From Deltaproteobacteria bacterium (GTDB taxonomy: Bacteria > DRYD01), in assembly GCA_028276365.1 (NCBI GenBank), contig JAPYWL010000035.1, forward strand, positions 1 to 13,605: a DNA stretch of 13,605 bases, written 5' to 3'. Within the stretch, counting starts at the first letter, position 1; each line of letters begins with the position of its first letter. Shown one piece after another: positions 581 to 13,605 of the stretch. A program made the position numbers and the translations under genes. The notes under the pieces were generated by a model, which saw only the letters and a program-made list of their open reading frames with translations, was not told the origin of the DNA and did no database searches.

Positions 581-618
581 TTATAATGGTAATTTTATTT
601 TTATACTGGTAATTTTAT
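581..618. repeat. imperfect 18-bp direct repeat, 20-bp period
   Basis: The 18 bases at 581-598 and at 601-618 differ at one position (ttataatggtaattttat against ttatactggtaattttat). The right copy covers the stop and last codons of the kinase-like gene. The left copy fills the 23-bp gap before the OstA-like start. It looks like a local tandem duplication of the 3' end of the upstream gene. No function is evident. Confidence 0.6.
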
Positions 619-1770
619 GGTGAAAGTAGTTCCTTTATTGGGGGTAGAATTTATTTCTAAATTACAGTCATGTTCTTTAAGAATATTTTTAGCTACGTAA
701 AGCCCTAACCCTAATCCTGATTTACTGGAAAAAGTTTTAAAAGGTTCACCAATATTACTTGTATCCTCTATTCCTATCCCATTATCACTTATAATTATAT
801 TTATATAATTCTCGTTAGATTCATAAACAACCTTGAAATCAATATAATTTTCTTCTTTATCTAAATCTTGAAATTTTAAAGCATTATCTAAGATATTATT
901 TATAGCTAAAGTAAATTTATCAGTATCAATAGAAACAGATGGTAAATTGGGTTGAATAAAATATTTAAAAAGTACATTTTTAGAATTAACTGTATTAAAA
1001 TCAATTACTTTTGAATTAAAATTTTGGGCTATACTTAGAAAGTAATCATAAGTATTTATTCTTTGTCTATTTAAATTTAAAGTTTCTTTAAGTTTTAATA
1101 TATTTAATATTAATTTAATTCCTTCTTTTGCTTCTTTATCTATTATAGAAATTAAATTTTTAGATACCTCAGGGTCTTTGTAATAACCATCTAATAATAA
1201 TGTTTCTGTAAAAGCTTTGGTTGTTGTTAAAACTTTATTAATTATACTTGCTAAAATTTCTATTTTTTTGTTTAAAAAATCTATCTCTTTATTAAGTAAA
1301 ACAATGTTATTAATATTTTCAGTATCCATTGCTTTGGGAGAAATAAATATTGCTAAAAATAATTCTTTATTACTTAAAATTAATCTTATTAGTATTAGTT
1401 CAAAAATATTATTTTTATAAACTACATTTATAGATGTTAAGTTAGTTGTTTTTATTTCTAAAGCATTTAAGAGATTTAACAGGTTATATATGAATGGTTC
1501 TAAGAGATCTTTAGAAATATTTGCCAAAAAAGGAGACTTAGAAGGATTATTTAAAAAAAACTGTATTTTTTCTTTGTTTTCTTGGGATTGAATAATATCT
1601 AATAAAATTATTTCTTTTTTTTCATTATTTTCGTTATCTAAAAATATGTTCTTAAAGATTGAATTAAATAAAATTGTATTAGATTTCTTATCTAAAACTA
1701 CTGCTGGAAATTTTATTAATTCTATTAGATTGCTAATTATATCTACTATTTTTTTATGAACACTGGACAT
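601..1770 (-). CDS. sensor-histidine-kinase-like protein lacking the phospho-acceptor histidine
   Basis: This 389-residue protein is soluble, with no membrane segment visible. Residues about 15-145 are PAS-like (FPAVVLDKKSNTILFNS is the usual opening). The C-terminal ATPase domain is well kept: N box at 288-300 (INNILDNALKF), G1 DNGIGI at 329-334, F box EPFKTF at 342-347 and G2 GLGLGL at 352-357. The dimerisation helix that should carry the H box (S-H-E-L-R-T-P-L) is recognisable at about 172-230 from its flanks (AFTETLLLDG..KDPE..., IIDKEAKEG). At the H-box position, however, it reads ASIINKVLTTTKAF, with no His. The whole protein has only two His residues, H5 and H367, both far from this site. 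It lies 93 bp after a PhoB-type regulator gene, its natural partner. It may be a regulatory pseudokinase, or may act on its partner without autophosphorylation. The start is the first ATG of the frame and has no clear ribosome site. Confidence 0.8.
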   Translation of the reverse strand: MSSVHKKIVDIISNLIELIKFPAVVLDKKSNTILFNSIFKNIFLDNENNEKKEIILLDIIQSQENKEKIQFFLNNPSKSPFLANISKDLLEPFIYNLLNLLNALEIKTTNLTSINVVYKNNIFELILIRLILSNKELFLAIFISPKAMDTENINNIVLLNKEIDFLNKKIEILASIINKVLTTTKAFTETLLLDGYYKDPEVSKNLISIIDKEAKEGIKLILNILKLKETLNLNRQRINTYDYFLSIAQNFNSKVIDFNTVNSKNVLFKYFIQPNLPSVSIDTDKFTLAINNILDNALKFQDLDKEENYIDFKVVYESNENYINIIISDNGIGIEDTSNIGEPFKTFSSKSGLGLGLYVAKNILKEHDCNLEINSTPNKGTTFTIKLPV

Positions 1771-1863: not shown

Positions 1864-2565
1864 TTATTTTTCTGCTTGTTCGCTTTCAACTACGAATTTA
1901 TAACCCACTCCATGGACAGTCTTAATATATGTAGCATTTTTATCGTTATCTTCTATTTTTTGTCTTAATCTTCTTATATGTACATCAACTGTTCGAGTAT
2001 CCCCTAAATAATCATATCCCCATATTTGTTCTAATAAGTATTGTCTAGTGAATACCCTGCCAGGGTTTGTTATGAATAATTTTAATAAATCAAATTCCTT
2101 AGGTTTTAGTTCTAAGAGTACGTCATTTTTATAAATTTCCCTTTTATTGACATTAATTTTAAAAGGACCTACTTGGATCTGATTAGTATCAATATTAGAG
2201 GTTCTAATCCTTTTAAGTACTGCTTTTATTCTTGCTAATAATTCCCTAGGACTAAAAGGCTTAGTTATATAATCATCTGCTCCAAGCTCAAATCCTAAAA
2301 TTTTATCTATTTCTTCACCTTTTGCAGTTAGCATTATTATTGGTACTCTACTTTCTTTCCTTATAGTTTTACAAACTTCAAAGCCCCCCATATCAGGTAG
2401 CATAACATCTAATATTATTAAATCTGGTTTCTCTTTTCTATATAAATCTAAAGCATCTTTACCTTTATATGCCTCTATAACTCTATAATTCTCTTTTTTA
2501 AGATGAAACTTAATTAACTCTACTATATTTTTTTCATCATCTACTATTAAAATTTTTGCTTCCAT
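1864..2565 (-). CDS. PhoB/OmpR-family response regulator
   Basis: A full-length 233-residue two-domain regulator. The receiver spans residues 1-118, with acidic pair D9-D10, phospho-acceptor D53 in LILDVMLPD, T80 and K102 (YITKPF). The winged-helix DNA-binding domain spans about 130-227, with the family marks KPKEFDLL, QIWGYDY, RTVDVHIRRLRQKI and TVHGVGYKF. It should bind direct repeats upstream of target genes once phosphorylated. Targets are unknown; the OstA-like neighbour suggests an envelope regulon. The gene follows the exported helical protein by 32 bp and precedes the kinase-like gene. An AGGAGGTG ribosome site (2579-2586) is present but leaves 15 bases to the only in-frame ATG, longer than usual. 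An in-frame TGA at 2578-2580 rules out a further upstream ATG. Confidence 0.93.
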   Translation of the reverse strand: MEAKILIVDDEKNIVELIKFHLKKENYRVIEAYKGKDALDLYRKEKPDLIILDVMLPDMGGFEVCKTIRKESRVPIIMLTAKGEEIDKILGFELGADDYITKPFSPRELLARIKAVLKRIRTSNIDTNQIQVGPFKINVNKREIYKNDVLLELKPKEFDLLKLFITNPGRVFTRQYLLEQIWGYDYLGDTRTVDVHIRRLRQKIEDNDKNATYIKTVHGVGYKFVVESEQAEK

Positions 2566-2597: not shown

Positions 2598-3311
2598 CTA
2601 CTTTTTAAATTTACTTTCAGCTTCCTTTAATATTTTTCTTACTTCCTCTTTTTTTATTAAATTATAATAATTTTTTAAATCTTGTAGAGTTTTTTTAGCC
2701 TTGTCATATTCATTTATTAATAAATAATAATCTATCGACTTTTTATAATATAAAGCAATTTGAACTAAGATATCTTCATTTAGCGTTTCTTGAATTTTCT
2801 CTTTTTTATATGTATCATTAACAAATGGAATATATTGAGTTTTATAGAATTCAAGTGAATATTTAGGATCTGTTGCATAAATTTTTTGTAATGTAGAAGC
2901 CATATTTAAATAATTACTAGCATATAAAGAATTTATTGTATCTATTTTTGATTTATCTTGAATTTTAGATAGAGAAATATTTAATTCATTTGAAAAAAAT
3001 AAAACATCCTTAGAAATATTATAAAACTTTTCTTTATTATTTAATTTATCTAAGTATATTATGTAAGCTAAAGTTAAATACGAAATTGAATTAACATAGT
3101 TTAAGGCACTGTATTTGAAATCTTTATTATAATAATAATTTTTAGCAATTTTGTAGTAATTATACCCTTTTTCTTCATAAATTTGAGCTTTATTTAATGA
3201 ATCATCTTCTATAGCATATGTAAAAAATTTAAATATTATATTCCAAAATATTAGTATATTTAAATAAATGATTCCTTTAATTAAATTTTTTCTCATTTTT
3301 TTATAGATCAT
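2598..3311 (-). CDS. exported helical (TPR-like) protein of unknown function
   Basis: A 237-residue protein with a basic N-terminus (KKMRKNLIKG) and a hydrophobic stretch at about 12-34 ending in FTYA, a plausible signal peptide cleaved near residue 33, or else a membrane anchor. The rest is predicted helical, Tyr/Lys/Asn rich, with alternating aromatic and small residues (KGYNYYKIAKNYYYNKDFKYSA, YYKKSIDYYLLINEYDKAKK) as in TPR-type solenoids, but I cannot define full repeats. It sits between a lone receiver gene and the PhoB-type regulator gene, so it may be an extracytoplasmic part of the same signalling system. That is inference from position only. The start is uncertain: ATG at 3311 or ATG at 3296 (MRKN), neither with a clear ribosome site. 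I do not recognise the family. Confidence 0.72.
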   Translation of the reverse strand: MIYKKMRKNLIKGIIYLNILIFWNIIFKFFTYAIEDDSLNKAQIYEEKGYNYYKIAKNYYYNKDFKYSALNYVNSISYLTLAYIIYLDKLNNKEKFYNISKDVLFFSNELNISLSKIQDKSKIDTINSLYASNYLNMASTLQKIYATDPKYSLEFYKTQYIPFVNDTYKKEKIQETLNEDILVQIALYYKKSIDYYLLINEYDKAKKTLQDLKNYYNLIKKEEVRKILKEAESKFKK

Positions 3312-3366: not shown

Positions 3367-3762
3367 TTAGTTTTTGGAATTTAAAACTCTTTCAATAGCT
3401 TCAATAATTTCTTGAGGATCAAAAGGTTTTATTATATAGTCTTTAACCCCTAATAATGTAGATTGTTTAATAGTTTCATAAGTATCTGTAGCCGTTAGCA
3501 TTAAGATATCTATATTGTTATATAGGGGATTTTGTCTAATTTTCTTTATGAATTCTAATCCATCCATTTCTGGCATCCTATAATCACAGATCATAATTTT
3601 TATATCTTTCCAATTTTTATCTAATATTTCTAAAGCTTCTTTTACTGTATTAGCTTTTAATGATTCATAACCCTCTAATTCTAATATACTACTTACTAAA
3701 TTGGTTATATTAGGCTCATCATCTAATACCAATATTTTTATTTTTTTCTTTTCTTCTTTCAT
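3367..3762 (-). CDS. stand-alone CheY-like receiver protein
   Basis: At 131 residues this is one receiver domain with nothing attached. Key residues are D14-D15, phospho-acceptor D60 in ICDYRMPEMDG, T90 (LMLTAT) and K112 (YIIKPF), so it should be phosphorylatable. Single-domain receivers act in phosphorelays or by binding a target protein. Nothing here shows which kinase feeds it. An AGAGGTG ribosome site lies a proper distance upstream of the ATG at 3762. It is 43 bp downstream of trpS and 55 bp upstream of the helical exported protein. With the PhoB-type regulator this makes two receivers beside one histidine-less kinase, which suggests a kinase encoded elsewhere or a non-standard relay. 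Confidence 0.9.
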   Translation of the reverse strand: MKEEKKKIKILVLDDEPNITNLVSSILELEGYESLKANTVKEALEILDKNWKDIKIMICDYRMPEMDGLEFIKKIRQNPLYNNIDILMLTATDTYETIKQSTLLGVKDYIIKPFDPQEIIEAIERVLNSKN

Positions 3763-8953: not shown

Positions 8954-9214
8954 ATGGATAAAATTGATAAAAATTTAATGAATGAGATCCAAAATGGTAA
9001 TGAAAATACATTAAGAGTAATAGTCCAATTAAATGAAGAATTTAATGAAGAAGAGGACAAAAGAATAGTTAAGTCCTTAGGAGGAGAATTCCTATTTGAT
9101 TTACCCATAATTAATTCTTATGTAGCTAAATTATCAAAAGGTGCAATAAAAATGCTTGCTCTTAATAAACGTGTTAAACGAATTTTCTTAGATGAAAAAA
9201 TTAGTATTACCTAA
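8954..9214 (+). CDS. stand-alone inhibitor I9 / subtilisin-propeptide-like protein
   Basis: An 86-residue protein with a strong AGGAGG ribosome site directly upstream. The pattern from residue 20 (LRVIVQLNEEF... GGEFLFDLPIINSYVAKLSKGAIKMLALNKRVKRIFLDEKI) is that of the inhibitor_I9 fold: a first strand, a helix, a middle strand ending in a hydrophobic turn, ls...a...L...V..I..D. In proteases of the S8 family this domain precedes the catalytic part as a folding chaperone and inhibitor. Here no catalytic domain follows and no signal peptide is seen. It could therefore be a free cytoplasmic inhibitor of an S8 protease, or a relic. No S8 protease gene is in the window. Fold assignment is by pattern and moderately sure. 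Confidence 0.72.
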   Translation: MDKIDKNLMNEIQNGNENTLRVIVQLNEEFNEEEDKRIVKSLGGEFLFDLPIINSYVAKLSKGAIKMLALNKRVKRIFLDEKISIT

Positions 9215-9234: not shown

Positions 9235-10344
9235 ATGGAAATAAATAATATTAAATCTAGTGATTATATTAATACCAATGATTTTATTATAAGTAATCCT
9301 AAAAATTATATAAAAAATAATCAAGTTTCTAATGAAATAAGTGATTTATTAGATGATAAAAAAGCTTTAGATAATAATAAAGACTTGGCTAACGATTTAT
9401 TAGTGGCTTTGAAAAATAAAAAAGATTTATTTGCTAACCCTAATGATCAAGTAATAACTAAAAATGAAATATTTAAAAAATATACTATCCAAGATTTGGA
9501 ATCTATAAGAAATAATGAAATAGCTAAAAAAGAGTTTTATAATCTATATAACTCTATTTTGTATAATAATTTTTATGATATTTATGATATTTTAAAAGAG
9601 GGAAATAGTGATTTTAAATATAGTATAAATGATGATAAAATAAGCAATTTAACTTATCGAAATGATTCTATTTCTTTTTATGCTAATATTAAATCCTTAG
9701 ATAGAATAATAGAAAAAATGAAAAGAAAAAATAAAACTAACTTATCTGAAATTACAGATATAGTAAGGGGTAGAATAGATTGTAGGGATATTAATCAAGC
9801 TTTAGAAATCTATAATAAAATAAAAAATTCCTTAAATTTAAAAAATAAAGAATTAATAGAAGAAGATAATATGATAATTAATCCAAGAACTGATTATATG
9901 GGTAGAATTCATTTATTAATAAAAGATAAAGAAACAGGTGGGATTTTTGAATTACAGATAGGAAGTAAAAACATAACTGATTTCATAGAAAAAAGTGTTG
10001 TAATTGATTATGGCACTAAAGAAAACCTTAATAACAATGGAACTATTACTTATATTCAAGATACTTTTAAATCTAATATACATGATTTATGTTATAAAGC
10101 TTTAAACAAAATATTAGATCCTAATTCTCTTTATTATAAAAAATATAACTCTATTATTCCTAAATTACAAGAACTTAAAAAAGAATATGTTGAAATTCAA
10201 AAAGAAATATTTGAAAATGAAAAAAACTCATCTTTTGAACAAAGAAAAAATGAAATAAATAAAAAAATAAATAACTATGTTCTTAAAGTTCAAGATACTT
10301 TTAGCTATGTTGATAAAAACGATATAGAATCTATTTTATCATAA
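9235..10344 (+). CDS. RelA/SpoT-like nucleotidyltransferase-fold protein, atypical
   Basis: A 369-residue protein of very low GC. Residues 1-140 are unrecognised, polar and Asn/Lys rich. Residues about 150-265 follow the (p)ppGpp synthetase layout. IKSLDRIIEKMKRK (152-165) matches the K-S-..ii.K.krK helix. SEITDIVRGRID (171-182) matches the D-i-.g.Ri strand, with D175 in the place of the metal-binding Asp. DYMGRIHLLI (220-229) stands for the GYxSxH block. GGIFELQIGSK (235-245) stands for the vEiQirT strand, with E239 as the second acidic residue. IDYGTKE may match the closing helix. The GYRS block is altered (YMGR, and no GY pair), so synthetase activity is doubtful. No hydrolase HD domain, TGS or ACT domain is present. 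The C-terminus (about 300-369) looks coiled-coil, rich in Lys and Glu. There is no ribosome site before the ATG. It may be a toxin- or effector-like member of the fold. Confidence 0.62.
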   Translation: MEINNIKSSDYINTNDFIISNPKNYIKNNQVSNEISDLLDDKKALDNNKDLANDLLVALKNKKDLFANPNDQVITKNEIFKKYTIQDLESIRNNEIAKKEFYNLYNSILYNNFYDIYDILKEGNSDFKYSINDDKISNLTYRNDSISFYANIKSLDRIIEKMKRKNKTNLSEITDIVRGRIDCRDINQALEIYNKIKNSLNLKNKELIEEDNMIINPRTDYMGRIHLLIKDKETGGIFELQIGSKNITDFIEKSVVIDYGTKENLNNNGTITYIQDTFKSNIHDLCYKALNKILDPNSLYYKKYNSIIPKLQELKKEYVEIQKEIFENEKNSSFEQRKNEINKKINNYVLKVQDTFSYVDKNDIESILS

Positions 10345-13337: not shown

Positions 13338-13605
13338 ATGAAAAAATTACCGATAGGAATAAGTGATTTCAAAAAACTAAGGGAAGAGAATTTTATATAT
13401 GTAGATAAAACTCAGTACATATATAAATTAATAACAGAGGGGGGAGGATACTACTTTTTAAGTCGTCCAAGACGTTTCGGAAAATCATTATTAATCTCTA
13501 CTATTAGATATCTCTTTGAAGGTCAAAAAGATTTATTTAAAGATCTATATATCTACAATAAATGGAATTGGGAGGAAGTCTATCCAGTCCTAAGGATAAG
13601 TTTTG
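13338..13605 (+). CDS. AAA-ATPase_like (PF09820-type) protein, N-terminal part
   Basis: The first 89 codons are present and the gene runs off the right edge. The opening LPIGISDFKKLREENFIYVDKT, the YFLSRPRRFGKSLLIST block (residues 39-55; a P-loop-like GKS at 48-50) and the DLFKDLYIYNKWNWEEYPV-like segment are hallmarks of the AAA-ATPase_like family (PF09820), which usually carries a PD-(D/E)XK nuclease-type domain at its C-terminus. These genes are often multi-copy and horizontally spread; the cellular role is poorly known. An AGAGGTG ribosome site is well spaced before the ATG. Codons such as CGT, CTC, GTC and CCG are more frequent than in the neighbours, which may hint at transfer. Confidence 0.9.
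   Translation, partial: MKKLPIGISDFKKLREENFIYVDKTQYIYKLITEGGGYYFLSRPRRFGKSLLISTIRYLFEGQKDLFKDLYIYNKWNWEEVYPVLRISF

Follow-up and report, generated by a model that had tools for sequence, protein, structure and literature searches.

To our knowledge, few pseudo-histidine-kinases have been described, and most were found singly in model bacteria. DivL binds the single-domain regulator DivK in a phospho-specific manner and controls a CckA-like histidine kinase (HK). DivL sets the output of CckA (PMC4211667), RetS sets that of GacS (PMC12189002), and RocA acts on CovS/CovR in Streptococcus (PMC7028121). The ChrS/HrrS heterodimers are a precedent for the pairing of HKs (PMC9491836). Split bifunctional kinases have been proposed for HisKA proteins that lack HATPase (PMC3591291), and FasB/FasC is a close heterodimer precedent (PMC12675982).

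The window, i.e., the whole 13,605-nucleotide stretch of DNA analysed here, belongs to a genome of 1.59 Mb (124 contigs, 87% complete). The phylum sample consists of seven genomes in two families, six in one family and a single genome, G006, in the other; all are drafts, 71–90% complete. The gene of interest, at 601–1770, has an open frame of 389 codons with an ATG start, and its product, a histidine-kinase homologue with a PAS-DHp-CA layout, is of the WalK/PhoR type. The features discussed below are collected in Table 1.

Table 1. Features of the pseudokinase gene and of the regulator genes beside it (coordinates are those of the window).
Feature	Coordinates	Strand	Remarks
Pseudo-histidine kinase, 389 aa	601..1770	(-)	N-terminal part PAS-like; DHp lacks His; ATP-binding motifs of the CA domain intact
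PAS-like sensor region, about residues 15–145, predicted cytoplasmic	1336..1728	(-)	approximate boundaries; alpha/beta PAS-like secondary structure in model
DHp helix 1, residues 149–193 in model	1192..1326	(-)	His absent in 7/7 orthologues
Expected H-box His position, residues S175–N178	1237..1248	(-)	S175 (MAFFT, structure offset) or N178 (HMMER)
KAFTET, residues 185–190, counterpart of HK853 regulator-docking segment KAYAET	1201..1218	(-)	present in all orthologues
DHp helix 2, residues 200–225	1096..1173	(-)	model
N-box NNILDNALKF, residues 291–300	871..900	(-)	sequence
G1 box DNGIGI, residues 329–334	769..786	(-)	sequence
G2 box SGLGLGL, residues 351–357, short ATP lid FKTFSSK ahead	700..720	(-)	sequence
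OmpR-family response regulator, WalR/PhoB-like	1864..2565	(-)	Response_reg and Trans_reg_C; phosphorylation residues present
Conserved helical protein, 237 aa, probably exported	2598..3311	(-)	without family match; always between two regulators in sampled loci
Single-domain response regulator, same gene cluster	3367..3762	(-)	

The first-pass annotation had described an intact ATPase domain joined to a helix without a phospho-acceptor His, and both parts of that description hold. The N-box, G1 and G2 are textbook, and HATPase_c passes its Pfam cut-off comfortably (68.8 bits versus 26.4). HisKA fails (13.5 bits versus 26.9), and its match begins only at residue 181, past the H-box. The segment ASIINKVLTTT (residues 174–184) carries no acceptor; the protein has two His residues in all, H5 and H367, neither of them in the DHp. 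The ATP lid is about 6 residues shorter than in most aligned HKs. NtrB-type HKs with comparably short lids are active, so that the short lid alone is no sign of decay. The region preceding the DHp gave zero Pfam matches in this protein, and PAS_8 matches the G006 orthologue weakly, under its cut-off; the model suggests that this region is a PAS-like domain.

A first fold model, built on 6 sequences, had low confidence in the DHp (pLDDT 33–52) and was left unused for it. The DHp-CA model made from 30 sequences (pLDDT 84, pTM 0.75) has two long DHp helixes and a CA sandwich, and it matches the structures of YycG/WalK, HK853 and DivL with Z of about 21, the DivL structure 4q20 being among the top fold matches. 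The model thus predicts a DHp-CA fold for the protein.

The residue that occupies the His site differs with the alignment and is therefore uncertain. MAFFT gives S175 as the equivalent, and so do the end-point offsets when the model is compared with HK853, DivL and WalK. The HMMER profile alignment to HK853 instead gives N178, an invariant residue, and places a 3-residue gap around the usual RTP. Neither reading gives His. Paired 3-residue deletions in both DHp helixes were considered and dropped, since helix 2 aligns with that of the G006 copy without a gap for most of its length.

In the MAFFT alignment the site holds S in this protein and N in its congener; the other genus has Q, and G006 has E. 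The Ser was rejected as a substitute phospho-acceptor because it is not conserved. Phosphorylation of another residue of the helix, which the first-pass annotation had named as an outcome that would undo its reading, is unlikely as a conserved mechanism if the substitute is sought at that same position. More broadly, the protein might be a GHKL-type Ser/Thr protein kinase or autophosphorylate elsewhere in the helix, given its intact GHKL motifs and the presence of S175 and T182–184 in helix 1 of this copy. We consider this very improbable: the His site offers no conserved acceptor, the conserved Thr/Ser positions are also found in ordinary HKs, and the nearest relatives are WalK/PnpS-type HKs, not SpoIIAB or PDK-type kinases.

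Exactly one strong orthologue is found in each of the six family genomes, with 74% identity to the present protein in the congener and 32–36% in the other genus. The orthologue in G006 (E = 4e-26) is a fragment at a contig end that reads VTEIFMEPLTTIKGFVETL, and the contig end leaves its G1 and G2 outside the sequenced part. The six complete copies do not vary in the N, G1 and G2 motifs, N292, D295, N296, D329, G331, G333, G352, G354 and G356 being among the invariant columns. In a tree, the seven orthologues form one clade (support 100/99), separate from other HKs. Helix 1 of the DHp is without His in 7/7.

Alignment with the nearest homologues had been proposed as a check on whether a clade shares the absence of His, and all seven phylum genomes, in both families, do share it. 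A normal H box in close homologues, which would have spoken for a recent change in this copy, was sought and not found; the missing His stands. Outside the phylum, 290 genomes yielded no orthologue of matching strength. The best matches there are ordinary HKs, and the closest sequences are PhoR/WalK-like HKs, all with an H-box of the SHELRTP type. The loss of His appears to predate the split of the two families and to have been fixed at the base of the phylum, because the G006 fragment falls within the 100/99 clade and carries Glu at the site. Sequencing error or a recent point loss was ruled out by the seven independent genomes. Nor is it a genome-wide or assembly effect, because four further HKs encoded in this genome carry normal H-boxes (SHELKTP, SHDIKTP, SHELKTP and SHDLRTP).

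The gene is under purifying selection. Its dN/dS against the congener is 0.169, within the range of 0.084–0.185 for the four normal-H-box HKs of the same genomes; the neighbouring regulator, compared between the two congeners, gives 0.038. Of its three domains, the DHp has changed least (77% identity between congeners). With an essential residue lost in 7/7 orthologues and dN/dS at this level, the protein qualifies as a pseudo-histidine-kinase. A decaying gene, or an artefact of annotation or assembly, is the least probable of the explanations weighed. It has in its favour that the gene evolves faster than its paralogues: the branches between the two genera are several times longer in the pseudokinase clade than for the C70- and C83-type HKs (named, as below, after their contigs in this genome), and such fast evolution could also reflect relaxed constraint. 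Against it are open frames in seven independent drafts, the invariant ATP-binding motifs and the conserved gene order. The first-pass argument against simple decay is thus upheld, both by the dN/dS of 0.17 and by motifs that are invariant in six complete copies.

The genes all lie on the minus strand, in the order rimO, trpS, the single-domain regulator, the helical protein, the OmpR-type regulator, the pseudokinase and a LptA/LptD-like gene, the LptD_N match of the last being weak. The order up to the pseudokinase is repeated in the congener and in G004, a genome of the other genus, and the shorter loci of other genomes agree; in G004 the gene next after the pseudokinase is polysaccharide pyruvyl transferase-like. 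The pseudokinase lies directly downstream of the OmpR-type regulator in 6/6 family genomes. The best NCBIfam match of that regulator is YycF/WalR, whose equivalog cut-off of 340 it misses with 273.5 bits; RpaB, MtrA and PhoB come next, so that the PhoB-type neighbour of the first-pass annotation is indeed of the OmpR/PhoB class. In every phylum genome, a regulator of this type is the sole OmpR-type regulator to match strongly. The tight operon partnership is not universal, because G006 has the two genes on separate contigs and its regulator is without an adjoining HK. The G006 regulator (L021, 1794–2495) is an orphan between galT and a TruD-like gene, the latter of archaeal appearance by eye; this may reflect transfer or contig mixing.

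Several other genes of the window deserve mention. The segment 10645–11624 contains the remains of an HD-domain (probably HD-GYP) gene in several frames split by stops; the first piece has a weak HD_5 match, and the last resembles, by eye, the end of an HD-GYP domain. The 369-residue protein of 9235–10344 has a RelA_SpoT domain (39.5 bits) and no further recognised domain. An 86-residue protein at 8954–9214 has, by eye, the look of a subtilisin-propeptide/I9-type inhibitor, with zero Pfam matches. Finally, the window ends within a predicted AAA-ATPase_like protein (PF09820), of which 13338–13604 encodes the first part.

The explanation we favour, with fair though far from full confidence, is that the protein is a lineage-fixed pseudo-histidine-kinase that acts in trans, through docking on a regulator and/or pairing with another HK. 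Its ancestor would have been a WalK/PhoR-type HK, the H-box of which was erased while the docking segment and the ATP-binding domain were retained. In work on HK853–RR468, the segment equivalent to KAFTET reportedly has a docking role. Among the orthologues this segment follows the pattern K-A/G-F-T/S/V-E-T, the version here being KAFTET and those elsewhere KGFTET or KGFVET. As a pseudokinase, the protein would not autophosphorylate on a DHp His, and because it could not, other HKs would have to supply the phosphate for the neighbouring regulator. The ATP-dependent shell of DHp and CA may act by docking on the regulator and/or by heterodimerizing with an HK of normal H-box, thereby gating the partner's phosphorylation or dephosphorylation of the regulator. 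The signal would enter via the cytoplasmic PAS-like domain, and perhaps also via the single-domain regulator of the same cluster. That is, the protein probably steers other kinases. The first-pass suggestion of a shell kept for regulation after the manner of DivL survives in part: loss of His in 7/7, the intact motifs and selection make regulation the best reading, whereas the Tyr of DivL is absent.

The protein is not expected to serve the regulator as a standard kinase or phosphatase, because the acceptor His, the acidic residue that follows it and the phosphatase Thr/Asn are all missing. The motif H-[ED]-x-x-[TN] is absent; its places read S, N, Q or E, then I or V, and K, R or E. Phosphatase activity of HisKA proteins is independent of the His itself. 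The docking segment and DHp shell, together with a gene that adjoins that of the regulator, would suit a dedicated phosphatase or a sequestering sink. Nevertheless, we regard this role as improbable, since the motif as a whole (His, E/D, two residues, T/N) is erased, with I/V and K/R following the site in the family and I and E in G006, and since G006 does not have the Asn of the family.

If the pseudokinase acts through other HKs, the candidates in this genome are four with normal H-boxes, on contigs C83, C70, C87 and C5, none of which adjoins a regulator gene. The docking segment of the orphan C83-type HK, KGFAET, resembles that of the pseudokinase; it is the only other HK of the genome with the same docking letters at those places, and the C70-, C87- and C5-type segments differ. 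A diverged response regulator of about 230 residues, with a C-terminal region, lies near the C70-type HK in the other genus (L106, 1168–1863), and its counterpart in G001 (L109) lies away from it.

The C5-type HK is a membrane sensor of 518–556 residues with damage opposite to that of the pseudokinase. In its five full-length copies SHDLRTP is invariant, DxGxG is absent and the lid is shortened; HisKA passes (31–49 bits) and HATPase_c fails (15–25 bits). In the pseudokinase orthologues, HATPase_c passes (69–73 bits) and HisKA fails. A sixth copy, in G003, is a fragment, in which G1 is likewise absent. The C5-type loci are L069/L112 (this genome, G000, contig C5, 20020–21672), L075, L077, L078, L067 and L155. 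The complementary states of the two proteins are found in the six family genomes, with the C5-type H-box seen in five, and are not found in G006, where HATPase_c of the C5-type orthologue (C140, E = 1.4e-39) still scores 69.8 bits. Judged from domain content, the pseudokinase and the C5-type HK would between them make up a single complete set of kinase parts.

These mirror-image states could be those of a natural split HK, in which the CA domain of the pseudokinase would phosphorylate the C5-type His in a heterodimer, phosphate then passing to the WalR/PhoB-like regulator. We think this possible but unlikely. It accords with the loss of G1 in all six C5-type copies, with the invariant SHDLRTP of the five full-length ones and with the HDxxT phosphatase motif that the C5-type keeps, and it has precedents in CheA3/CheA4 of Rhodobacter sphaeroides and in the split-bifunctional proposal (PMC3591291) and FasB/FasC (PMC12675982). 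However, the two genes are unlinked, their docking and hairpin sequences differ, and C140 of G006 keeps HATPase_c although the G006 pseudokinase is already without His. The two losses were therefore not simultaneous, and a tentative version of the same scenario would have them occur stepwise, His being lost before the family split and the partner's ATP box in one family only. If this were true, only a heterodimer of a soluble ATPase half and a membrane His half would drive the regulator.

An entire, though small, phylum appears to have fixed a pseudo-histidine-kinase, in our preferred reading one that acts in trans, next to its apparently sole OmpR-type regulator, and its genomes are reduced and contain very few regulators. 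A second HK with the mirror-image loss makes the pair a concrete candidate for the division of a two-component kinase between two proteins. There is also a caution for annotation, as the gene would be labelled 'sensor histidine kinase' despite lacking the standard chemistry.

Compared with described systems, the protein is closest to HKs of the WalK/PnpS/PhoR type, its best NCBIfam matches being WalK (104 bits) and PnpS (83 bits). Unlike these, it is not a membrane sensor, and the matches start past the erased H-box. Both kinase and regulator fall outside WalK/WalR, with scores far below the equivalog cut-offs (725 for WalK, 400 for PnpS and, for the regulator, 273.5 versus 340 for YycF).

As in the split kinases CheA3/CheA4 and FasB/FasC, one HK homologue here is without His and another is without the ATP-binding box, but the proteins belong to the HisKA family rather than to CheA, the genes are unlinked and the complex is putative. 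The C5-type HK, rather than the pseudokinase, is like ChpT and Spo0B in combining a DHp His with a CA domain that probably makes no use of ATP (PMC3433190), and, alternatively, it could act as a phosphotransferase of that kind. It differs from them in keeping a full membrane sensor architecture.

With DivL of Caulobacter and other Alphaproteobacteria, the pseudokinase shares a PAS and DHp-CA fold without an acceptor His, persistence across a lineage, and a setting that includes an OmpR-type and a single-domain regulator. In DivL the site is Tyr, or rarely Ala, and ATP binding is weak (PMC4211667), whereas the orthologues here have S, N, Q or E, none has Tyr, and the GHKL motifs look intact. 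The comparison seems a fair one as to function; the protein would not be classed as a DivL, and common descent is unsupported. RocA, too, is homologous to HKs yet has no kinase function, and it tunes an OmpR-type regulator by way of a second HK. It keeps a dispensable His and has a degenerate CA domain and membrane spans (PMC7028121), and the protein described here appears to be the reverse, and soluble.
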